A stretch of DNA of 36,008 bases from Granulosicoccus sp. (GTDB lineage: Bacteria > Pseudomonadota > Gammaproteobacteria > Granulosicoccales > Granulosicoccaceae). Made by a program: the position numbers and the translations under genes. The stretch lies in the NCBI GenBank assembly GCA_023300375.1, contig JALZWO010000186.1:1-36008 (forward strand). Reading direction: 5' to 3'. Within the stretch, counting starts at the first letter, position 1. The number at the start of each line of letters is the position of its first letter. Positions 403-13,635 of this stretch are shown piece by piece. A model generated the notes under the pieces. It worked only from the letters and a program-made list of their open reading frames with translations. It did not search any database and was not told the origin of the DNA.

Positions 403-2919
403 CTAAGCCGCACCTTGCAGAAACTGCTGCTCATTGGCAAGAATTTCACCAACCTGTGCAACCGTTAGTGGTCGGCTAAACCAATAACCTTGGCAGATCT
501 CACATTCACGATCAAGTAGGTACTTGTAGTCACTCAGAGTCTCAACACCCTCTGCTACTATTTCAAGCCCCAAATTATGTGCGAGTGACACGATAGCTGA
601 CACTATTTTTTCGTTTGGCTCACCCACCTTCACACCGGTCACAAAGCTACGGTCAATCTTTAATATATCGATAGGCAGTGAATTCAATGAACCCAGAGAT
701 GAATAACCCGTGCCGAAGTCATCCATCGCAATACGTACTCCACTGTTACGGATCACGTTAAGTGAATGAAGCACGTCTGACTTTACGTCCATCATGCACG
801 ACTCCGTTATCTCAAGCTCCAACGCTTCTGGAGGCATGTCATATTTAACCAAGGTACTCGCAACAATATCAGGCAAATAGCCATGGCCAAATTGTTTCTG
901 CGACACGTTAACCGCCACGCGTGGAAGTTCGAAACCTTGCTCGTGCCACAGCGCCCATTGCCGGCAGGCCTCATCAAGTACCCAGGTACCTAACACGCCG
1001 ATCATCCCCATATCCTCGGCCAAACCCACAAATTTTTCTGGTGAAACAAATCCATGCTTGGGATGGTTCCAACGCAGCAAAGCTTCAAGACCGACAATTT
1101 GTTTATTTCTTGTGGCAACTTGAGGTTGAAAATAAAGTGTCAATGCTTGCGTCTCAATAGCATTTTTTAAATCATTCTCCAGCTCAAGCCTTTCATGTTT
1201 ATCACAATCCAAATTACTACTGTAAAAACGATAACTACTGCCGTTCCATCGTTTGGCTTCGTACATCGCAGCATCAGCACATTGCATAAGATGCTCTACC
1301 TCATTGCCATTATCAGGGAAGCAGGCAATGCCAATACTCACGCCAATAGTTAACTTCTGGCCTGCCAGTTCCATAGGTTTTTCTAACTCCAGCAGAATTT
1401 GTTCAACTACTAGACCAGCATCCATCGAATCATCTAGTCTGTGAGTTAAGAATACAAACTCATCTCCACCAATACGAGCTACAGCAGCTGTAGCGTCTGT
1501 ACAAGCTGAATTTTTTATCTGTAATTCACACTGTTCAAGAAATAGCTCCAAGCGTGCACCCACTATTCGCAATAGTTCATCGCCAGCCTCATGACCGAAT
1601 GTATCGTTTATTTTTTTAAAATTGTTCACATCAAGATAAAGCAACGCCTTACTAAAACTATGATCTTCCCACTGACTGGCAGCTTTCTTTACCTCCTGCA
1701 AAAAGGCGCGCCGATTGGGTAGCCCGGTAAGGCTATCTTTATACGCCAGCTCTTCGATCTCACGGTATGAATTTGTCAGGTTCAACATAGACTGCATGAG
1801 CTTACTGTTCATGGCATAAAAAGCGCGTGCTAAGTCCCCAATTTCGTCTGAGCGCTGTAGATTCAAATCAGCCATATCAGCAGCTCGTCCATCACCAATA
1901 TGAAAAGCTAGTTGCTGCAATTGATTGACAGGTATAAGGACAAGTCTAGACAGCAAAACGTACAGCAAATACGACGATGCGGTTACAGCGAAAATACCCA
2001 CCAGTATAATAGTGAGCCCTAGGTTTAGAAGGACGGGCTGAAACTCCGTATCAGGCAATACACTAAGCAATGTCAAATCAGAATTGAGAACTCTACCCTG
2101 CACATAAACATACTCTCCGTCTACTTTAGATTTTACCATACGCTTTACTTCATCAAGTTCATCAGTGAGCAGAGAATTGACACTTAATGCTTTGAATAAC
2201 TGAGTGGCATCCGTATTAATCATTTCAGCATTAGGATGAAATACAATTTTTTTCTGCTTATTGATCACAGTAAGATAACCACTTTCGCCAATGCCATTGC
2301 GCTCAACTAACGCATCAAGAGTGTCGAGACTGACTGTCAGAACAAGGTATCCCACCAAACGGTCACGTGCCTCTATAAGACTTGTACCAGGCTCTGGATG
2401 TCGTATAGCTATCGAGATTAAGAGGGCAGGATTACTGTTTTTTGGGTTGTTGATTACAGCCGTCCTATAACCCCTATCACCGCGCTTTATAAAATCAAAA
2501 TAAGGCACATCCTGCACGTCGTGTGTAAGGTCTGCAAATGGAGGGATAGCCACCCTTGTATCTTCATATCCATCCGGTAATATCAGCTGTATTTTTTTGT
2601 ATTCTGGATATAGGTTTTGATATTTGTTAAACAGTTGCAGCAAACCTGGCTGAAGAAGAGCATATCGTTCTGCTTCATCTTCAACATCAAGATATCGATC
2701 TATATAGTTTGAACTGGCAAAAAGCTTGGCATTAGCTATCGCATTTTTGACAAAGTCATTGGTTTTATTCTGCGTTTCATCCAGCAATGTGGCCATCTGA
2801 TGTAACACCATCATCTCAGATCGGTGTCGTAACTGTGCAAATACTATGGTGGCAAGCAGCAGCATTGACGCGATGATACTAAGCACGATAGCCAGAATTA
2901 TTTTTTTACGAAGTTTCAT
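403..2919 (-). CDS. Membrane-bound GGDEF-EAL protein with periplasmic sensor domain (MbaA-like)
   Basis: An 838-residue inner-membrane protein that should make and/or degrade cyclic di-GMP in response to a periplasmic signal. Visible order: TM helix ~7-29, periplasmic Cache-like sensor ~30-295, TM helix ~298-323, HAMP ~320-372, GGDEF ~391-555 (intact GGDEF at 484-488), EAL ~575-825 (EALLRW at 612-617, DDFGTGYSS at 733-741, EGVET at 790-794). The EAL catalytic motifs look complete, so phosphodiesterase activity is likely. The position expected for an RxxD inhibitory site, five residues before GGDEF, reads DATA, so no classical I-site is seen. The gene starts 40 bp after a PotD-like binding protein gene on the same strand. 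This is the arrangement of NspS and MbaA in Vibrio cholerae, where the binding protein reports polyamines to the GGDEF-EAL partner. Domain calls are firm; the polyamine link is inferred from context. Confidence 0.93.
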   Translation of the reverse strand: MKLRKKIILAIVLSIIASMLLLATIVFAQLRHRSEMMVLHQMATLLDETQNKTNDFVKNAIANAKLFASSNYIDRYLDVEDEAERYALLQPGLLQLFNKYQNLYPEYKKIQLILPDGYEDTRVAIPPFADLTHDVQDVPYFDFIKRGDRGYRTAVINNPKNSNPALLISIAIRHPEPGTSLIEARDRLVGYLVLTVSLDTLDALVERNGIGESGYLTVINKQKKIVFHPNAEMINTDATQLFKALSVNSLLTDELDEVKRMVKSKVDGEYVYVQGRVLNSDLTLLSVLPDTEFQPVLLNLGLTIILVGIFAVTASSYLLYVLLSRLVLIPVNQLQQLAFHIGDGRAADMADLNLQRSDEIGDLARAFYAMNSKLMQSMLNLTNSYREIEELAYKDSLTGLPNRRAFLQEVKKAASQWEDHSFSKALLYLDVNNFKKINDTFGHEAGDELLRIVGARLELFLEQCELQIKNSACTDATAAVARIGGDEFVFLTHRLDDSMDAGLVVEQILLELEKPMELAGQKLTIGVSIGIACFPDNGNEVEHLMQCADAAMYEAKRWNGSSYRFYSSNLDCDKHERLELENDLKNAIETQALTLYFQPQVATRNKQIVGLEALLRWNHPKHGFVSPEKFVGLAEDMGMIGVLGTWVLDEACRQWALWHEQGFELPRVAVNVSQKQFGHGYLPDIVASTLVKYDMPPEALELEITESCMMDVKSDVLHSLNVIRNSGVRIAMDDFGTGYSSLGSLNSLPIDILKIDRSFVTGVKVGEPNEKIVSAIVSLAHNLGLEIVAEGVETLSDYKYLLDRECEICQGYWFSRPLTVAQVGEILANEQQFLQGAA

Positions 2920-2959
2920 GCTAGCTCACCGATACACATTAAAACTGTTGACTGACCGT

Positions 2960-4081
2960 TCACTGAAAATCCCGAAATAATTCAGCATCGATGCTGTTGA
3001 TATACTTAGTCATTCGCGGTGCAATTGGTCTAATATGGTCAGAGTTTTCCAGCACGTGATTTTCTGGATGAATAATCGTGTTCGATAAATAGGCAGCTGA
3101 TAAATACGGTTTTGTCGCAACATTGGGTGATGCAAAATATACCCACTCAGCATTTCTTGCTGCAATATCAGGGCGATTGATAAAGTTTAGAACCTGATGC
3201 GCTAGTGGCTTATTATTGGTGGCCTGTGCAATGGCAAAATAATCTATCCACACAAGCGTGCCTTCATTTGGCGCCATGTAAGCAATATTTTCACTATGCT
3301 CCTGTAAGGCTAGTGCATCACCGTTGTACATACTCGCAGCCCAGACTTCGCCAGTAAGCATCACAGAATTTTCGTTCATCGTGGGGTAGGCATACTCTAC
3401 GAATGGCCTCTGATCTTGTAACAGCTTTCGTGCCTTTTTCAAGTGATCTATGTTGTTCGTATTTGGCGACAAGCCTGCAGTCTTTAATGCAATTGAAGTA
3501 AGCTCTCGCGCATCGCCAATCATTAGGATCTTGCCTTTGCGCTTTTCGTCAGGCTGCAATATTTCTATCCAACTATCGAATCCGTCGGGTAATAGATCTT
3601 TGCGATAGGCTATTCCCAGCGTGCCCCAGAAATAAGGCACACCATAGGTCTCAACACCTTCGAATGCGCTTTTCCACTTTGTATCAATATTTCTGGTGTA
3701 TGGAAGTTGATCTTGGTCTAGTGCTTGTAGCCATCCCCGAGCGCCATAGCCCTCAACCTTAAGGCTATTAATTAGGGATAGATCATATCCTTGAGCGTCC
3801 ACCGAGGCGACTGCTTCATCACGAGCTTGATCAGATTCGAAATAACTGAAGAGCATTTGCACGTTGTGCAAGCTTTCGAATTCCTCAACCAGCTCTGGAT
3901 TAATGCATTCAAACCAGGTAAGGATGTGTAACTGATTGTTGGCAAACGCTGGCACAGACACGGACATGAATATAAAGCCCACGAGCAGCAATTCAGCTAT
4001 CCATACGGCACATAACGCAGGCAGTTGGACTGTACGCCTTACACAGCTGAACTGACTTGCCAGAATAGAAAACTTGAACAT
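2960..4081 (-). CDS. PotD-like periplasmic polyamine-binding protein (NspS-like)
   Basis: A 373-residue extracellular solute-binding protein of the spermidine/putrescine (PotD/PotF) family. A long basic n-region and hydrophobic core (~26-43) end in a likely cleavage site after AFA-47. Segments typical of PotD are present: TWFE at 55-58 near the mature N-terminus, FWGTLGI at 151-157, GEVW at 244-247, MYNGDA at 251-256 and VWIDYFAI at 277-284. The W-x-D of the last (W278, D280) matches the PotD residues that hold the polyamine amine groups; the Trp of the PotD WNGS segment is Tyr here. No potABC genes are adjacent. The next gene in the same direction is a GGDEF-EAL protein 40 bp away, so the protein more likely acts as a signalling receptor than as part of a transporter. 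Ligand identity is not determined by sequence. Confidence 0.88.
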   Translation of the reverse strand: MFKFSILASQFSCVRRTVQLPALCAVWIAELLLVGFIFMSVSVPAFANNQLHILTWFECINPELVEEFESLHNVQMLFSYFESDQARDEAVASVDAQGYDLSLINSLKVEGYGARGWLQALDQDQLPYTRNIDTKWKSAFEGVETYGVPYFWGTLGIAYRKDLLPDGFDSWIEILQPDEKRKGKILMIGDARELTSIALKTAGLSPNTNNIDHLKKARKLLQDQRPFVEYAYPTMNENSVMLTGEVWAASMYNGDALALQEHSENIAYMAPNEGTLVWIDYFAIAQATNNKPLAHQVLNFINRPDIAARNAEWVYFASPNVATKPYLSAAYLSNTIIHPENHVLENSDHIRPIAPRMTKYINSIDAELFRDFQ

Positions 4082-4463
4082 CTCGATACTTCACCTTTGT
4101 TGAACAAACAAGCCTCTTCGATAAAACGAAGGCTGTAAGGTCAGATATCGACTAACAGTAAAGCTTCCTAAAATTATTACTGTGTACTTACCACGGCAAC
4201 ACTGTTACGCCGGCCGCGCAATAGAAGGTAAGGCTGGCAAGTAGGTATAGCGGTCAGATTGCACACGCAGCGGTAAAGAGCGGTAGCGTGACTCTTGAAA
4301 GTGGTGCGTCGCTTGCAGTTGGTCTGTTCGCATGATTAACAGCCCACTCACAAGACTCTCTCACAGGCGGCATTAGAGAAATAGAAGCTTGCCGCCTGTA
4401 TAGGCGTAGGAGACGAACAAGATCCGACTAGTTGAGAACTATAGAGCGCTGATTGTGCAATCT
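4082..4463. other. Intergenic region between the livF-type gene and the PotD-like gene
   Basis: No gene is seen in this stretch. It lies downstream of the ABC transporter operon and upstream of the PotD-like gene, both on the - strand, so it should hold the promoter of the PotD-like/GGDEF-EAL pair, but I could not identify convincing -35/-10 boxes. It contains a perfect 10-bp inverted repeat (4363-4399), and the 8-bp tandem array begins at 4464. Confidence 0.5.
4363..4399 (-). terminator. Stem-loop downstream of ABC transporter operon
   Basis: A perfect 10-bp inverted repeat (acaggcggca at 4363-4372 and tgccgcctgt at 4390-4399) with a 17-base loop. It sits about 120 bp after the last ABC transporter gene. 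There is no T-run on either side, so it is a candidate mRNA 3' end or Rho-assisted stop rather than a classical intrinsic terminator. Confidence 0.4.
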
Positions 4464-4535
4464 GCCAGATAGCCAGATAGCCAGATAGCCAGATAGCTAA
4501 ATAGCTAAATAGCTAAATAGCTAAATAGCTAAATA
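4464..4535. repeat. Nine-unit 8-bp tandem repeat overlapping the 3' end of the livF-type gene
   Basis: Nine consecutive octamers: four copies of gccagata (4464-4495), then five of gctaaata (4496-4535). The two unit types differ at two positions, so the array is two homogeneous blocks. The right end lies inside the ABC ATPase gene: its last codons (Y, L, A, I and the TAG stop at 4521-4523) are read from the repeat. The unit length is not a multiple of three and each gctaaata unit carries a TAG on the - strand. Confidence 0.95.
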
Positions 4536-5246
4536 TTCGTGACGTAACTCTTCGTTGTCTAGCACTTCTTGTGCACTACCACTAAATACTATTTCACCCG
4601 TATCGAGAATGAGCGCAGAGTCAGCAAGCTTCAATGCCGCAACTGCGTTTTGCTCAACAAGAACTGTGGTTATTCCCATGCTCTTCACTTCAAGAAGCGC
4701 TTTCTCGATATCGTGGCGCACAACAGGCGCAAGGCCTTCGTACGGCTCATCAAGTAACAGTAGTTTGATATCTCTAGCCAGTGCACGTGCAATCGCCAAC
4801 ATTTGCTGCTCACCACCCGATAGCGTGGTGCCTATTTGCTTACGACGCTCTTTAAGCCTTGGAAATAGGCTGTAAATACGTTCATATTCCCAGCCGGTAT
4901 CACCTGCAATACAGGCGATGTCGAGGTTTTCTTCCACGGTAAGCCCAGGAATAATGCGACGATCTTCAGGCACTAGCTGTATGCCAGCGAGCGCTGCTTC
5001 AAAATCTTGCATTTCATGAATTTGCTGACCTTGTAGCTGAACGCTACCAGAACGCACTTCAGGTTCAGCAGCTCGTGCTATTGCACGCAAAGTGGATGTT
5101 TTTCCTGCTCCATTGCGTCCAAGCAAGGCAACAATTTCACCTTCATTGACTGAAAAAGACACACCTTGCACGATGTAGCTGTCGCCATAATAGGCTTTTA
5201 AATCTTTGACTTCGAAATAGGCATTTGCAGTGGTTGAGTCACTCAT
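4521..5246 (-). CDS. livF: ABC transporter ATP-binding protein, LivF type
   Basis: A 241-residue cytoplasmic ATPase that would energise the importer encoded in the same operon. Walker A GRNGAGKT is at 43-50, the signature LSGGEQQ at 142-148 and Walker B with LLLLDEP at 162-168; length and sequence are typical of LivF/UrtE-like subunits. Its ATG overlaps the TAA of the upstream LivG-type gene by one base, so the two are translationally coupled. The C-terminal codons and the stop lie inside the 8-bp tandem repeat at 4464-4535. The substrate of the system cannot be fixed from the ATPases; livF is used in the family sense only. Confidence 0.92.
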   Translation of the reverse strand: MSDSTTANAYFEVKDLKAYYGDSYIVQGVSFSVNEGEIVALLGRNGAGKTSTLRAIARAAEPEVRSGSVQLQGQQIHEMQDFEAALAGIQLVPEDRRIIPGLTVEENLDIACIAGDTGWEYERIYSLFPRLKERRKQIGTTLSGGEQQMLAIARALARDIKLLLLDEPYEGLAPVVRHDIEKALLEVKSMGITTVLVEQNAVAALKLADSALILDTGEIVFSGSAQEVLDNEELRHEYLAI

Positions 5247-6007
5247 TACACTTGCTCCTCACCTAAGTAGGCTTCTTTAACACGCGGATCGTTCTTTACC
5301 TCTTCCGGAGTTCCTTGGCAGATAATTCGGCCACCCGCCAATACAGAAATGCGGTCGGCCAAGCTGAACACAACATGCATGTCATGCTCAATGATGACCT
5401 TAGTCATACCGCCTGCCTTGATTCGTTTCAATAACTCAATTGTGGCATTGGTATCGTGTCTTGCCATCCCGGCAGTGGGCTCGTCGAGCAGCAATAGTCG
5501 CGGCTTCTGGGCCAGACCCATGGCCAACTCAAGTCGACGTTTATCACCGCGCGACAAACTACCCGCATCGGTGCGAATTAAAGTTTCCATACCCAGATCG
5601 GACAGGAGATGCTCAGCTTCAATTCTTGCCGTTTTCTCGCTAGAAAACCGTCTGAACCAACGAAGTTTGAAAGAACCATCGCGTTTGGCCAGTATGGGAA
5701 TCATCACGTTTTCAAGCAATGACAGTTCCGGGAAGATTTCCGGCGTCTGGAATACCCGAACCACTCCTAGCTGATTAATTTCATGAGGCTGTTTTCCTGT
5801 CAGATTCTCACCATCGAAAACCACATGTCCTGAATCAGGCTTTAGCCTACCAATACACACATTAAGCAGCGTGGATTTACCGGCACCATTAGGCCCGATA
5901 ATCGCGTGAGTCTCACCTTCTCGAACGGAGAGATCGATATCACTTAGTGCATGTAGACCCGCAAAGCTCTTATGCACATCGGCTACGTGTAAGACTGTAT
6001 TTTCCAT
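5246..6007 (-). CDS. livG: ABC transporter ATP-binding protein, LivG type
   Basis: A 253-residue ATPase, partner of the LivF-type protein. Walker A GPNGAGKST is at 38-46, Walker B LLLLDEP at 171-177 and the switch histidine in IEHDM at 206-210. The signature region reads LSRGDKRRLE (151-160) rather than the usual L-x-x-G-Q/E; this departs from consensus but keeps the helix-capping Gly. The gene starts 2 bp after the LivM-type stop and its stop overlaps the next start (TAATG), so it is mid-operon. Assignment to the branched-chain amino acid/urea/amide class is firm, substrate unknown. Confidence 0.92.
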   Translation of the reverse strand: MENTVLHVADVHKSFAGLHALSDIDLSVREGETHAIIGPNGAGKSTLLNVCIGRLKPDSGHVVFDGENLTGKQPHEINQLGVVRVFQTPEIFPELSLLENVMIPILAKRDGSFKLRWFRRFSSEKTARIEAEHLLSDLGMETLIRTDAGSLSRGDKRRLELAMGLAQKPRLLLLDEPTAGMARHDTNATIELLKRIKAGGMTKVIIEHDMHVVFSLADRISVLAGGRIICQGTPEEVKNDPRVKEAYLGEEQV

Positions 6008-6009
6008 GA

Positions 6010-7167
6010 TTATGCCCCTGATGCATTTTCACTGGCACTTGGAGTGCTAGTGATGGCGGCAGTTGGTTTTTTGCGTGAAAAGATTGACCCGATACGACGT
6101 ACGCCTTCCATGATTCCACCCGGCAAAAATATTACCGTGATCATGAACATCAAACCGAGAGTCAAATGCCAACCCGAACCAACAAAAAGACTCACCACAT
6201 CAACAACGATTGGCTGTAAGGCTTCGGGTACAAAATCGAACACCTGAGTCAAACTCGTCGTGTTGTAAGCGGAGAGAATATTCTCAAAATACTTTATGAC
6301 TGCGGCACCAATGAATGGACCGAGCAAAGTACCGACACCACCTAATATCGTCATCAAAACGACCTCTCCCGACGCTGTCCACTGCATGCGCTCGGCACCT
6401 GCTAACGGATCAGTTACAGCCATCAAACCACCTGCTACACCGGCATACATCCCAGAGATGATAAATGCCCAAAGCAAATAAGGCTTGGTGTTAAGACCCG
6501 TGTAGGCCATACGCGTCTGATTAGATTTAATGCCGCGTAGCATCGCCCCAAAAGGCGATCTGAATATGCGTAACGATATAAAAAATCCGATGACAAGAAC
6601 AGTTGCGCAGAAGTAGAACCCTGGCATACCACTCATCTTGATCCCAAAGAAGTTAGTCACTGGCAGACTACGTGTGACCTCTATCCCGGCGGCGGCATCG
6701 AGCACCCGGGCATCGCTCAGTGTCAATTGCAATCCGGTTTCACCATTGGTGATGGGGGTGAGCACCGAATAAGCCAGTTTGTAGGACATCTGTGCAAATG
6801 CCAGCGTCAGAATGGAGAAGTAAATGCCCGAACGTCGCAAGCTGATGAAGCCTATGACTACGGCAAACAAAGCGGTAACCAACATGCTAAACATAATAGC
6901 TGGCACCACATTCATCGTTAACAGCTTGAAACTCCAAACCGCAGTGTATGAACCTATTCCCAAAAACGCCGCATGTCCAAACGACAGATAGCCGGTAAGA
7001 CCAAAGAGTATGTTGTACCCGATAGCGAAGAGTCCGAAAATGGCAAAGCGCTGCATGAGGTCTGGGTAATCTGCACCCAGAGGTTCCAGCCAAATTGGCA
7101 TGCTATAGACAGCTGCGGCAAATGCAAACAACAACACCCAGTCGGATATGGCAGAAAATTTATTCAT
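6010..7167 (-). CDS. livM: ABC transporter permease, LivM type
   Basis: A 385-residue inner-membrane permease with many hydrophobic helices and the BPD_transp_2 core. Family landmarks include [19 protein letters not shown] near the N-terminus and [13 protein letters not shown] in the second half. A cytoplasmic Lys/Ala/Ser-rich tail follows the last helix. It forms the translocation pore with the LivH-type permease encoded 9 bp upstream. The loop before the central helices (about residues 145-175) is longer than in many LivM proteins. Operon position LivH-LivM-LivG-LivF is the standard order for this importer class. Confidence 0.92.
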
Positions 7168-7176
7168 GTTCCTCTC

Positions 7177-8199
7177 CTAGTCTTCCATTACGCCTTTGCG
7201 ACCCATCAGGCCACGAGGTCTAACCAGTAAAACGATAACGGCGACAAGATAAATAATGATCTGGTCCATGCCTGGGATGATGCTCTTTACTTCAGTCATG
7301 GATGCAAACGACTGCACCAAACCTAAGAGGAATCCGGCGAGAACTGCTCCGCCTAAGGATCCCATTCCGCCAACCACTACGACAACAAATGAGAGTACGA
7401 GAAAGTCCATTCCAAGGTTGTAGTCAGGTGGATATATGGGGGTGTACATGACGCCAGCTAAGCCTGCAACCACAGCTGCAAGGCCGAACACGATAGTAAA
7501 ACGACGTTGTATGTCAATACCTAGCAAACCCACCATTTCGCGATCCTGCATGCCCGCTCTTACCACCATGCCAAATGTCGTGAATTGCAAAAAGGCAAAT
7601 ACCGCTCCAATAATCGACAATGAAAACCCCAGATAAATCAAACGCCACCAAGGGTAAATAACATTATCGCCTAAACCAACCAGGGCTCCAATATTCGCAC
7701 TACCAGACACGATATCTGGGGCTGTTTGAGGTATCGGACTTGCGCCAAAGTAATGTTTAACAATTTCTTGAATGACGATAGCCAGTCCAAACGTCACCAG
7801 TATCTGATCTGCATGCGGTCGCTTATAGAAGTGGCGAATAAGGCCACGTTCCATCACAAGACCGACTAACAACATAAAGGGGATGGCAAGCAAAATTGAG
7901 AAGGGTACCGAGTAATCCACGATAAACCCGCCGACTACTGGAAATTTTGCTTCCAGTATCGGCACTTCTTTGTATGCTTCAAAGAACGTGATACTTTCAT
8001 CACGTACCTTGGTAGAAATAGTCAGTACTTTTTGGACCGACACTGCGCAAAATGCGCCAAGCATGAATAGCGCACCGTGGGCGAAGTTAACAACACCCAG
8101 TGTGCCAAAAACCAAGGTTAGACCCAGCGCAATGAGCGCATACGCTCCACCTTTATCCAATCCGTTTAATACTTGTAAAAATATTGCGTCCAAGAGCAA
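7177..8199 (-). CDS. livH: ABC transporter permease, LivH type
   Basis: A 340-residue inner-membrane permease of the branched-chain amino acid/amide importer class. The N-terminus carries the family segment GLTLVFGTLGVVNFAHGALF and the C-terminal half carries VVVVGGMGSLGGAVLAGF. Between the first helices there is an extra hydrophilic stretch of roughly 30 residues (about 58-85), which is longer than in E. coli LivH. The gene is separated from the upstream binding-protein gene by a 364-bp gap containing two hairpins, so its expression is probably lower than that of the binding protein. Confidence 0.92.
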   Translation of the reverse strand: MLLDAIFLQVLNGLDKGGAYALIALGLTLVFGTLGVVNFAHGALFMLGAFCAVSVQKVLTISTKVRDESITFFEAYKEVPILEAKFPVVGGFIVDYSVPFSILLAIPFMLLVGLVMERGLIRHFYKRPHADQILVTFGLAIVIQEIVKHYFGASPIPQTAPDIVSGSANIGALVGLGDNVIYPWWRLIYLGFSLSIIGAVFAFLQFTTFGMVVRAGMQDREMVGLLGIDIQRRFTIVFGLAAVVAGLAGVMYTPIYPPDYNLGMDFLVLSFVVVVVGGMGSLGGAVLAGFLLGLVQSFASMTEVKSIIPGMDQIIIYLVAVIVLLVRPRGLMGRKGVMED

Positions 8200-8287
8200 A
8201 CCCCTTCTGGTTCAACATCGATCAATAGGCAAAACAAGCCCGTAAGCCAAGCTGTAAGGACAGCTAATGCCTGAAGATCAAAGCAAT

Positions 8288-8314
8288 AAAAAAGAACAAG
8301 TGAGTACACTTGTT
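8288..8314 (-). terminator. Intrinsic terminator or attenuator before livH
   Basis: Read on the - strand, an 8-bp perfect stem (aacaagtg/cacttgtt, 8295-8302 with 8307-8314) with a 4-base loop is followed by C and six T residues (8288-8293). This has the form of a Rho-independent terminator, modest in GC. It lies between the binding-protein gene and livH, so it should be only partly efficient if the permease genes depend on the upstream promoter. Confidence 0.65.
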
Positions 8315-8432
8315 TTGTCAGGTACAACTTAGATAACAACTCCTAGCAATTGTTCACCCAACCTATGGACAAAAAATTGTTTACCGGTTAATCAGTCCCG
8401 AACCAGTTGAGCGTTAAAGTTTCCTGAATCGA

Positions 8433-8474
8433 GGGTTGTTCGCATACAGAGCTTGCGCCCATTGCGAACAACCC
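8433..8474 (-). repeat. 12-bp perfect inverted repeat after the binding-protein gene
   Basis: The arms gggttgttcgca (8433-8444) and tgcgaacaaccc (8463-8474) are perfect complements separated by 18 bases. It begins about 90 bp after the binding-protein stop. No T-run follows on the - strand, so a 3'-end-protecting stem-loop that stabilises the binding-protein message is more likely than an intrinsic terminator. Confidence 0.6.
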
Positions 8475-8563
8475 GTTCTAGCTACACAATTATCTAAATG
8501 TTTGCGTGCTTATAAACCTAAAAGCGACAACAACAGAGCATAAGTGCGGCAATCTACAACGCA

Positions 8564-9925
8564 TCAAACGCCGTTGTTACAAGTACCTAAATCACCACCA
8601 GCAAACATCTCATGATCTACCGGGTACTCAACTTGAGCACGTGGTGTTACTTCAACAATTTCAAGAAGGTCGAATTGTGATGAAGGATTGTCTTTTCCTT
8701 TCACAACCAGCACGTCTTTGAAGCACTGATGATCGTCTGCTCGATACTCAGTAGGACCGTTGCCCATGCCATCAAACTTGTGACCTTCAAGTGCGCCAAC
8801 AACCGCACAAGGCTCAAATGTACCGGCACGTTCTGCAGCATCTGCATACAGGAGTGTTTGCACGTAACAAGTATGAGCCGCCTGTGAAGGTGGGAAACCA
8901 TACTCTTGGCCGAATGACTTAACAAAAGCTTGACTACCTGCATCGGTCAAAGACCAGTGCCAGTTTGTTGAACCGAAGATGCCTTTAATGTTGTCTCCAG
9001 CACCTTGCGCCATGAGACGCGAGAACAGTGGAACGACAATCTGGAAGTCTTTACCGTCAACTTGTCGATCACGCAGACCGAACTGGATAGCTTGAGTCAG
9101 GGAGTTAACCATGTCCTTGCCGTAGTGGTTAAGAACCAGCGTATCGGCACCTGAATTCAATACTGGCGTGATGTACTGACTGAAGTCACCAGCACCTACC
9201 GGAGTCAGTACAGTTTCAGCGGTGTTCCAACCGATATTTTCCGTGGATGCCACGATAGAGGCTTCCTGTGTCCAGCCCCAGTTATAGTCGGCTGTTAGGT
9301 GATAGGCGTTTCGCTCTTTCCCGTAGTTCTTTTCTAGTACTGGACCCAGCGCCGCACCTGACATGAACGCGTTAAAGAAGTGACGAAAGCCGTTAGCTTT
9401 CTTATCTTTACCCGTTGTGTCGTTGGCGTGTGTGAGACCCGCCATGAAGATGACACCTGCATCCTGGCAAAGGCTTTGAACTGCAACCGCTACACCTGAC
9501 GACGATCCACCTGTGATCATGGTGACACCGTCTTTCTCGATCATACGCTTGGCCGAGGCTCTGGCAGCATCACTTTTAGTCTGTGTGTCGCCTGTTACGT
9601 ATTCGACTTTTTTGCCCAAGATACCGTTGCCTTTCAGAGCATTCGGTTGCATGGTATTCAACATGCCACCATCGCCTTCACCGTTAAGGTGCTTTACCGC
9701 TAGCTTGTATGCACGCAGCTCATCTGCGCCTTCGTCAGCGTACGCACCAGATTGAGGAACGTTAAAACCGAGTGTGACAGTACTAGCGTCGCCCGGATCG
9801 TTGACGTAATCTGCAGCAAACGCATTCTTTGTGAAGAACATTGGAGCGCCGGCTATGGCTGTTGTAGCAGCACTGGCCTTTAGTACATCACGGCGTGACC
9901 AATCGCTAGTTGTTTTCTTACTCAT
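8564..9925 (-). CDS. Tat-exported ABC transporter substrate-binding protein (branched-chain amino acid/amide class)
   Basis: A 453-residue periplasmic binding protein of the Leu/Ile/Val-binding (type I fold) family. The N-terminus has a twin-arginine signal (S10-R-R-D-V-L-K) and a likely cleavage after AFA-37, so it should be exported folded by Tat. The mature start (VTLGFNVPQSGAYADEG) and GGSSSGVAVAVQ are typical of the family. Five cysteines occur in the mature protein (LCQ, TCY, PCA, QCF, TCN), unusually many for this family and possibly disulphide-forming. ATG is preceded by a good aggaga ribosome site (9932-9937). The permease and ATPase genes follow on the same strand. The ligand is unknown; amino acids, amides, urea or aromatic acids are all handled by relatives. 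Confidence 0.9.
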   Translation of the reverse strand: MSKKTTSDWSRRDVLKASAATTAIAGAPMFFTKNAFAADYVNDPGDASTVTLGFNVPQSGAYADEGADELRAYKLAVKHLNGEGDGGMLNTMQPNALKGNGILGKKVEYVTGDTQTKSDAARASAKRMIEKDGVTMITGGSSSGVAVAVQSLCQDAGVIFMAGLTHANDTTGKDKKANGFRHFFNAFMSGAALGPVLEKNYGKERNAYHLTADYNWGWTQEASIVASTENIGWNTAETVLTPVGAGDFSQYITPVLNSGADTLVLNHYGKDMVNSLTQAIQFGLRDRQVDGKDFQIVVPLFSRLMAQGAGDNIKGIFGSTNWHWSLTDAGSQAFVKSFGQEYGFPPSQAAHTCYVQTLLYADAAERAGTFEPCAVVGALEGHKFDGMGNGPTEYRADDHQCFKDVLVVKGKDNPSSQFDLLEIVEVTPRAQVEYPVDHEMFAGGDLGTCNNGV

Positions 9926-12558: not shown

Positions 12559-13635
12559 TCACTTCAACTTCTCTCCAATAATAACCTCTGCGCGCAATAG
12601 AATACCGTATGTCCGCTCAAAATCTGCGCTGGACGGCCACGCTACAGAAGGCCAGATCTCGTAAAAAAACCATGGACGCCCTACATTGTGCCTCCAACGA
12701 GCTCTGAATTGGTGCCCGCGATACCGTTCAGTTTCGTCCTCCTCCAGGTCTGTCTGATAACTGGCAAGCCCCTCAAGAGCCACTGAACGACGCTCACCGA
12801 GCTGCCAATAAACTCCCGTGGTGTGCCCAACAACCGCCCCCTCCTGACCATTCTCCCAATCTACAGAGGTGAATGTTCTAAAAAAAACATCTTTTCTGTC
12901 GTTGGAAAACAACTTTCGCCGCAAATCAAAGGACAGCCTGTTTTCGAATCCTGTTACGAAATAGTAGTAATAACTGTTGCCTAAACTGGCTCTCCAGTTT
13001 TTATTAAAATCAACGCGAAAGCGCAGATTCACTCGACTAAAAAACTGAATCCGGCTATTTTGCCTGCGAAGGCCTAAATCCAGATCGACTTTGGAATTTT
13101 CGCGTGCCGAACGAATAAAACGCAAAGCCACCGACGCATTCCTGTCCGCACCTCCCAGATCAGCAAGATCCTGCTCCTGAGCTGACGTATCCACATCATC
13201 ATCTTCGGTACTGATTAACAGCTTGAGTTTACGCTCTGTTTCGGGCAACACAGCACGCACTTTCACAGATGATTTCAGCTCAAAGGACTTCCCATTGGTA
13301 CCCCGTACGCCTTCTACTCGTATTCTGGCCCAGCTACCCGTACTGACAGCATCATCATCAGAACCTGCATTACTGAAAAAGCCGTCCACCTGCCCCATAA
13401 AAGCACCGAATCGCTCTGAAGCAAGACGTTGTGCGCCATCAGCCATGTTAATAGAACGCCTGATCACACCAATGCGAACGATATTCTGCCTTCGCTCAAC
13501 AGCTCCCCGGTTAGTCTCTATTTTAGAGCTTGTCGAATCGTCTTTGAGGTTAGATTCGTTAGCGTGCACCTGTGCATTTTGAAAAACCAGAACACAAATT
13601 ACTGCAAGACAAGACGCAGCAATCGTTCTACGCAT
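12559..13635 (-). CDS. Unknown exported protein, probable outer-membrane beta-barrel
   Basis: A 358-residue protein I do not recognise. It has a signal peptide (~1-25, ending VHA). A charged, Asp/Glu-rich segment follows, and the C-terminal two-thirds consist of alternating polar/aromatic stretches (for example FFSRVNLRFRVDF, YYYYFVTGF, FFRTFTSVDW, VGHTTGVYWQLG) typical of transmembrane beta-strands. It does not end in the usual aromatic BAM signal: the last residues are GEKLK. Its ATG overlaps the hisC stop by 8 bp, so it is translationally coupled to hisC, a strange pairing. Function unknown. Confidence 0.6.
   Translation of the reverse strand: MRRTIAASCLAVICVLVFQNAQVHANESNLKDDSTSSKIETNRGAVERRQNIVRIGVIRRSINMADGAQRLASERFGAFMGQVDGFFSNAGSDDDAVSTGSWARIRVEGVRGTNGKSFELKSSVKVRAVLPETERKLKLLISTEDDDVDTSAQEQDLADLGGADRNASVALRFIRSARENSKVDLDLGLRRQNSRIQFFSRVNLRFRVDFNKNWRASLGNSYYYYFVTGFENRLSFDLRRKLFSNDRKDVFFRTFTSVDWENGQEGAVVGHTTGVYWQLGERRSVALEGLASYQTDLEEDETERYRGHQFRARWRHNVGRPWFFYEIWPSVAWPSSADFERTYGILLRAEVIIGEKLK

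Follow-up and report, generated by a model that had tools for sequence, protein, structure and literature searches.

A PotD-type binding protein gene paired with a dCache GGDEF-EAL receptor gene in Granulosicoccus: a putative sister branch of the NspS/MbaA system

Introduction

The closest described relatives of the locus presented here are the NspS/MbaA pairs, best known from Vibrio cholerae (PMC8079147, PMC8967002, PMC9993111). Norspermidine-bound NspS is reported to associate with MbaA and to convert it from a phosphodiesterase into a cyclase, MbaA being a constant phosphodiesterase in V. cholerae without NspS (PMC8079147). Such pairs were found in 222 of 16,076 complete proteobacterial genomes, and published examples come from Sinorhizobium, Pseudomonas, Shewanella and Marinomonas, among others (PMC9993111). 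In this work we analyzed a stretch of 36,008 nucleotides from Granulosicoccus sp. (assembly GCA_023300375.1, contig JALZWO010000186.1, positions 1 to 36,008), hereafter the window, in which the gene of a PotD-type periplasmic binding protein (SBP) precedes the gene of a membrane receptor with a periplasmic dCache sensor and GGDEF and EAL domains. We consider it likely that the two genes constitute one sensory unit, in which the SBP would drive the receptor in the manner of NspS and MbaA. Granulosicoccus is often named in a paper on kelp-surface genomes (PMC9238374), and the locus offers a concrete hypothesis for this genus, namely a route from amines to cyclic di-GMP (c-di-GMP).

Results and discussion

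A conserved gene pair

Both genes were confirmed as open reading frames (ORFs) of the minus strand, separated by 40 bp (Table 1), and the ORFs and their domains agree with what an earlier note on this DNA had described. In a class sample of 369 genomes, SBP matches at E 1e-30 or better were obtained for 51. In the eight genomes where SBP identity reached at least 38% (the source genome included), a homologous receptor gene was located directly downstream in all cases. The contigs of GTDB genomes were also scanned with the alignment of these eight SBPs, and the best 80 of 419 relatives were used. Only the SBP was used to select the loci, blind to their neighbors, and 68 of the 80, with 74 SBP frames, were assigned to the family by profile score. 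In 68/68 of these loci a receptor gene follows directly downstream on the same strand, and its sensor is homologous (67 clear, and one, L120, weak). Because all 68 related loci show the pairing, it is more than a product of chance. That the SBP and the receptor act as a pair is, in our opinion, highly probable. Of the other 12 loci, two (L121 from Vibrio and L134 from Ectorhizobium) resemble NspS loci and have GGDEF-EAL partners; the remaining ten adjoin Pot-type transporter genes.

Among the best 80 of 419, the nearest named relatives are metagenome-assembled genomes (MAGs) of Granulosicoccus, with 51-55% SBP identity. In the class sample, one genome of the same genus (G354) carries the pair with an SBP identity of 47%; the best SBP match, however, reaches only 30% in another genome of the genus (G258) and 28% in one of the same family (G145), so the presence of the pair is patchy. 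It should be noted that the titles of three MAGs (L066, Halobacteria; L116, Klebsiella; L122, Anaerolineae) suggest binning errors, and that L122 is near-identical to the alphaproteobacterial L111. Broken SBP or receptor frames were observed in the contigs of L098, L099, L103 and L121, due either to decay or to sequencing error.

Table 1. Coordinates of the gene pair, its domains and the tandem SBP arrays, and counterparts of the SBP pocket residues (positions in the window, except for the arrays, which are given in the numbering of their own loci)
Feature	Position or counterpart	Strand	Basis
PotD-type periplasmic binding protein (SBP) gene, 373 aa	2960-4081	minus	ORF, Pfam, NCBIfam, PDB matches
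Spacer, 40 bp, SBP gene to receptor gene	2920-2959	minus	
Membrane receptor gene, 838 aa: transmembrane helix (TM), dCache, TM, HAMP, GGDEF, EAL	403-2919	minus	
dCache periplasmic sensor, ~aa 28-295	2035-2838	minus	Pfam dCache_1 aa 40-242; model; 2p7j alignment
HAMP, aa 322-367	1819-1956	minus	Pfam sub-cut-off; family profile matches HAMP structures
GGDEF domain, aa 392-557, motif intact at 484-488	1249-1746	minus	
EAL domain, aa 582-817; E612, N671, E703, D733, D734, K754 present	469-1176	minus	
Tandem SBP array, L064	4971-7141		
Tandem SBP array, L071	5037-8450		
Tandem SBP array, L086	2413-6026		
Tandem SBP array, L090	4899-7278		
SBP W56	PotF W37 / PotD W34		alignment
SBP E58	PotF D39 / PotD E36		alignment
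SBP N105	PotF S85 / PotD S83		alignment
SBP L107	PotF S87 / PotD Y85		alignment
SBP D190	PotF A182 / PotD D168		alignment
SBP E193	PotF E185 / PotD E171		alignment
SBP Y252	PotF W244 / PotD W229		alignment
SBP D255	PotF D247 / PotD S232		alignment
SBP W278	PotF F276 / PotD W255		alignment
SBP D280	PotF D278 / PotD D257		alignment
SBP I350	PotF L348 / PotD Q327		alignment

Ancestry of the pair

NspS-type pairs for comparison were taken from two samples, one of the genus Vibrio and one of a rhizobial family. Two of them, L209 and L210, match the eight published NspS contacts in number and letter and carry D426/E427 of the SGDEF motif, from which we infer that they are V. cholerae-like; their EVL glutamate is found at 553, against 552 as published. 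In a quick SBP tree of 116 rows, all receptor-coupled SBPs grouped in one clade with a support of 99 (SH-like approximate likelihood ratio test, SH-aLRT), within which an inner clade (99) comprised the NspS-type rows and a second one (89) 47 of the 48 family rows. The long row L042, whose SBP adjoins a soluble kinase without sensor and sits on a long branch, fell inside the family clade, and L120 outside. In a more careful tree of 66 rows, for which L042, L053, L141, L120 and L197 were omitted as long or unsure and the rest of the 116 rows were thinned, support was 100/97 for the family, 100/99 for the NspS type and 100/99 for the transporter side. When the family and MbaA sensor profiles were compared, they matched with 99.3% probability over TM, the periplasmic part and HAMP, but the periplasmic part by itself gave 49.4% (local) or 74.6% (global). 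Since the SBP trees separate the two clades and the sensors are only remotely alike, the family pair is, as judged from sequence, a sister branch of NspS/MbaA and not a member of it, and both kinds of SBP together are set off from PotD/PotF as a single receptor-coupled clade. The assignment to an NspS/MbaA type made in the earlier note therefore stands as far as it concerns a PotD-type SBP that is coupled to a receptor and has GGDEF-EAL as its partner, but not as membership. This suggests that receptor coupling of PotD-type SBPs arose on one branch, which then split in two.

The clade also has residue markers. The alignment used for the NspS contacts omits named contigs present twice, as well as several loci that were not required. 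For the marker counts, 46 "other" rows served for comparison (33 with a same-strand Pot-type ABC (ATP-binding cassette) gene within 2.5 kb, 13 without one on the available stretch). R87 is Arg in 114/114 receptor-coupled rows with a letter at this site and in none of the 46 other rows; R160 is Arg in 115/117 and 8/46, respectively. W117 characterizes the family (73/73 rows, versus 0/42 NspS-type and 2/46 other rows), and C281 the NspS type (42/42), the SBP of the window having Y281. The markers R87 and R160 could be used in annotation to distinguish PotD-like proteins that serve signalling from those of importers.

As a possible mark separating the family from MbaA we also considered Pfam dCache_1, which was not matched in the four MbaA-type receptors scanned (L210, L226, L189, L198). 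This candidate was rejected: among five further family receptors, L101 and L117 have no match either, and L095 and L120 are sub-threshold. Apart from this, L121 and L188-L196 constitute a further group on the NspS side, from Vibrio-type genomes, with a mostly degenerate GGDEF motif and sensors that reach 27 bits or no match against the MbaA profile.

The binding protein and its ligand

The SBP matches Pfam SBP_bac_8 (80.6 bits) as well as the NCBIfam models of PotD (146.5 bits) and PotF (117.4 bits), in both cases below the equivalog cut-offs of 582 and 636, and it has a signal peptide of about aa 1-47, judged by eye. The top matches of a PDB sequence search were of the PotD/PotF type, Lmo0810 and E. 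coli PotD. Its AlphaFold2 model (mean predicted local distance difference test score, pLDDT, 94.2) aligned with the PotF, PotD, SpuD, SpuE, VcPotD1 and YdcS entries at Z scores of 33-39, and with binders of gamma-aminobutyric acid (GABA) and opines at 27-29. No solved NspS or MbaA was named among the 25 PDB sequences matching the SBP or the 51 matching the sensor profile.

By alignment, the pocket is made up of W56, E58, N105, L107, D190, E193, Y252, D255, W278 and D280, and appears to keep the acids that hold polyamines (E58, D190, E193, D255, D280) together with an aromatic box (W56, Y252, W278). For PotD, we take the numbers W34, T35, E36, W229, S232 and D257, and Y37 at the site of C59, to be the appropriate ones. 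The pocket residues of PotF and PotD used for mapping come from PMC8666671, according to which positions 276, 182 and 348 are the main specificity sites of PotF. At these sites the SBP has W and D, as in PotD, and I, nearer to PotF; on this basis a triamine may serve as a first, weakly held guess for the ligand.

In general terms, the ligand is probably a polyamine or a close diamine. It could be thought instead that the same SBP-receptor unit responds to a different compound, such as an amino acid derivative, a GABA-like molecule or another cationic osmolyte. Six of the eight published NspS contacts (W41, D70, D90, F131, Y233, D236, W261, D263) are identical in the SBP, but two NspS acids are lost, with Q85 in place of D70 and N105 in place of D90, and C59 stands where Tyr is found in 70 of the 71 family rows with a letter. 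These differences count against a polyamine, as does the existence of PotD-related GABA or opine binders in the PDB list. Within the family, the Q85 state is common to L055, L056 and L057 (4/75 rows), and N105 is the commonest state of its site (35/75). Nevertheless, the SBP retains the five acids and the aromatic box seen in PotD/PotF, and its structure resembles polyamine binders clearly more closely than GABA or opine binders, so that we regard a non-polyamine ligand as improbable.

The sites of difference are Q85 and N105, relative to NspS, and C59, which is odd within its own family. The earlier note had correctly pointed out that the W-x-D contacts are kept (W278-x-D280) and that one PotD tryptophan, W229, is replaced by Tyr252. 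However, its suggestion that this replacement may change ligand choice was rejected, as Tyr is the NspS state (32/32 NspS rows) and is also present in 61/75 family and 16/46 other rows.

Polyamine importers and synthesis in the genome

An SBP with a PotD fold might serve a polyamine importer encoded elsewhere, its place beside the receptor being incidental, and Pot-type permeases are indeed present in this genome (4.58 Mb, 247 contigs, completeness 97.5%). A search with E. coli PotB/PotC showed three strong permease pairs, in C109 (PotFGHI-like), C161 and C233, each of them accompanied by an ATPase and a binding protein gene of its own; the next permease match, C234, also has its own binding protein (sugar-type by eye). 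No orphan set that might use the SBP of the window was seen among these three sets (weaker matches were not all examined). Since these three Pot-type sets have their own SBPs, a full Pot system with this SBP as its receptor, the finding that would have spoken for an importer, was not obtained. In addition, the SBP groups in the receptor-coupled clade. We consequently give the importer explanation very little credit.

At the locus itself, the scan with Pfam and NCBIfam showed that the SBP is not encoded with Pot-type ATPase and permeases. An ABC cluster of the same strand (4521-9925) begins 439 bp upstream of the SBP gene; it is of the urea/branched-chain type by Pfam and NCBIfam and encodes its own binding protein. 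For this reason no Pot-type partner adjoins the SBP gene, in agreement with the absence of transporter partners claimed previously.

As to polyamine synthesis, the sole match of the nspC profile in the genome reached 30.6 bits, far below the cut-off of 409, and norspermidine as a self signal was accordingly rejected. This match lies in what we take to be a LysA-like ORF beside a DapF-like one. The N-domain of spermidine synthase had no match in the genome either, although a MAG may miss genes and the search was confined to these two markers of polyamine synthesis. The lack of a sufficient match to either, with these limits, suggests that the ligand comes from outside the cell.

The receptor and the proposed mechanism

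The receptor has clear Pfam matches to dCache_1 (61.7 bits, cut-off 45), GGDEF (133) and EAL (229), while HAMP (19.2 bits) falls short of the cut-off of 25. Both catalytic motifs are canonical, with EALLR at 612, and the protein is thus a GGDEF-EAL receptor predicted by its motifs to be bifunctional. Two Cache modules are placed between two TM helices. The AlphaFold2 model of the sensor (mean pLDDT 90.7) aligned with the dCache structure 2p7j over 236 residues (Z 21.3, 2.9 A), and structure comparison showed a full dCache fold, near amino-acid and amine receptors. When the PDB was searched with the sensor profile, the best matches were to HAMP; in the genome, this profile had one full match, and 13 others (up to 38 bits) lay mostly over the TM2-HAMP end.

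In the periplasm, the secreted SBP would capture a polyamine-like amine, probably of extracellular origin, and in a ligand-dependent state it would dock on the dCache domain of the receptor. The signal would travel through TM2 and HAMP and shift the balance between synthesis by GGDEF and breakdown by EAL, with a change in c-di-GMP. By analogy with the behavior of NspS and MbaA in V. cholerae, the SBP, bound or free, should bias the receptor in one direction or the other between its two intact enzymes.

Several points weigh against this proposal. dCache domains often bind ligands themselves, and McpU is reportedly a dCache protein that binds polyamines. The fold of the sensor is likewise compatible with direct binding of a small ligand, as in chemoreceptors, in which case the SBP would be merely co-expressed or modulating. 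In a mirror-tree analysis of 45 loci, the SBP, the sensor and the cytosolic part all correlated (0.80-0.84), but the SBP had a partial correlation of 0.53 with the cytosolic part as against 0.34 with the sensor, and for this reason the analysis provides no evidence for docking. Furthermore, linked SBP and kinase genes may be functionally unrelated: for AgtS/AgtB and AruS/PA4985 of Pseudomonas aeruginosa, encoded near each other, no interaction was reported (PMC11113362).

On the other hand, direct binding by the dCache domain does not account for the linkage of SBP and receptor in all family loci, nor for residues shared by the SBPs of the clade that most or all transport-type rows lack. Moreover, R-x-W/Y-Y, which we take to be the dCache amino-acid motif, is absent from 61/61 family sensors. 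Direct sensing, the main alternative, is thus rather unlikely, if somewhat less so than a non-polyamine ligand, and we favor a sensory unit in which the SBP acts through the receptor.

Output swaps and tandem binding proteins

The output domains are not constant in the family. GGDEF and/or EAL motifs were found in the frame of the sensor in 54 of the 68 receptors (the GGDEF motif is missing in three of them: L089, L105 and L107), and histidine-kinase motifs in 11 (L059, L093, L095, L097, L108, L111, L114, L115, L117, L120, L122), several of which also have receiver or Hpt domains. For the remaining three, no output could be assigned in the sensor's frame: L065 and L116 extend beyond the end of the contig, and L098 has a broken frame, its GGDEF-EAL part lying in the next one. 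HisKA and HATPase were confirmed by Pfam in all four kinase loci scanned (L059, L095, L117, L120). Sensor and SBP remain paired where the output is a histidine kinase. On trees of 58 loci, which keep 8 of the 11 kinase loci and omit five near-copies and short rows, the output label needs seven changes on the sensor tree and five on the SBP tree, and well-supported branches force at least two changes.

In 4/68 loci, tandem SBP genes precede a single receptor: two in L064 and L090, and three in L071 and L086. These arrays occur in Marinobacter ELB17, Halomonas and Denitrificimonas. The copies cluster by position across genera (support of 96 for the first, 99 for the middle and 88 for the last in the 116-row tree), and their pocket site 105 is N in the first copies (4/4), S in the middle (2/2) and D in the last (4/4). 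Additionally, site 151 is S in the middle copies, and Y occupies site 255 in the last copies of L064 and L090.

The kinase outputs and the tandem SBPs are new here. In the parts of the open-licence literature consulted, no description was found of the separate branch, of kinase outputs or of tandem SBPs, which is no proof of their absence. A broader interpretation, which we put forward tentatively, is that the family represents a modular and widespread unit, sister to NspS/MbaA, in which SBP and dCache are kept and the output is swapped between GGDEF-EAL and hybrid histidine kinase, one receptor in some genera reading several amines through two or three SBPs that differ in pocket chemistry. 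The natural output swaps could be used for the study of signalling by SBP-bound dCache domains, and the tandem arrays could serve as a natural setting in which to ask if a single receptor combines the input of several ligands.

Other features of the window

Upstream of the SBP gene, at about 4460-4500, there is a short tandem repeat of "agatagcc". A 358-aa ORF at 12559-13635 had no Pfam or NCBIfam match at E 0.01.

Comparison with known systems

E. coli PotD and PotF have the fold and most pocket residues in common with the SBP described here; however, they fall outside the receptor-coupled clade, do not have R87, and are encoded with PotABC or PotGHI genes. As for the receptor, its sensor shares the double-Cache fold with PctA, Mlp24, DctB and other dCache chemotaxis or kinase receptors. 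Unlike these, the family sensors do not carry the presumed amino-acid motif mentioned above, and the receptor always lies beside an SBP gene.

The closest likeness is to V. cholerae NspS/MbaA. In both systems a PotD-type SBP gene is directly upstream of the gene of a membrane GGDEF-EAL protein, the receptor has two TM helices and HAMP, the markers R87 and R160 are common, and the sensors are remotely homologous. The differences are also clear: identity between the SBP of the window and those of the V. cholerae-like L209 and L210 is about 27-28%, the receptor has GGDEF and EAL where MbaA has SGDEF and EVL, the genes are 40 bp apart whereas those of NspS and MbaA overlap, and histidine-kinase outputs exist in the branch to which the pair belongs.

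The NspS-MbaA systems of S. meliloti and other proteobacteria present the same gene order and parts. In S. meliloti, NspS-MbaA is reported to respond to polyamines, with effects on biofilm and exopolysaccharide (PMC9993111). Given these published cases outside Vibrio, the locus cannot be considered, as the earlier note proposed, the extension of a Vibrio-type circuit to another lineage. In our trees the rhizobial loci L134 and L218-L227 group with the NspS clade and not with the family. The pairs of Shewanella, Moritella and Desulfuromonas are spaced 3-13 nt (PMC9993111), and some of these published pairs may be members of the branch described here.

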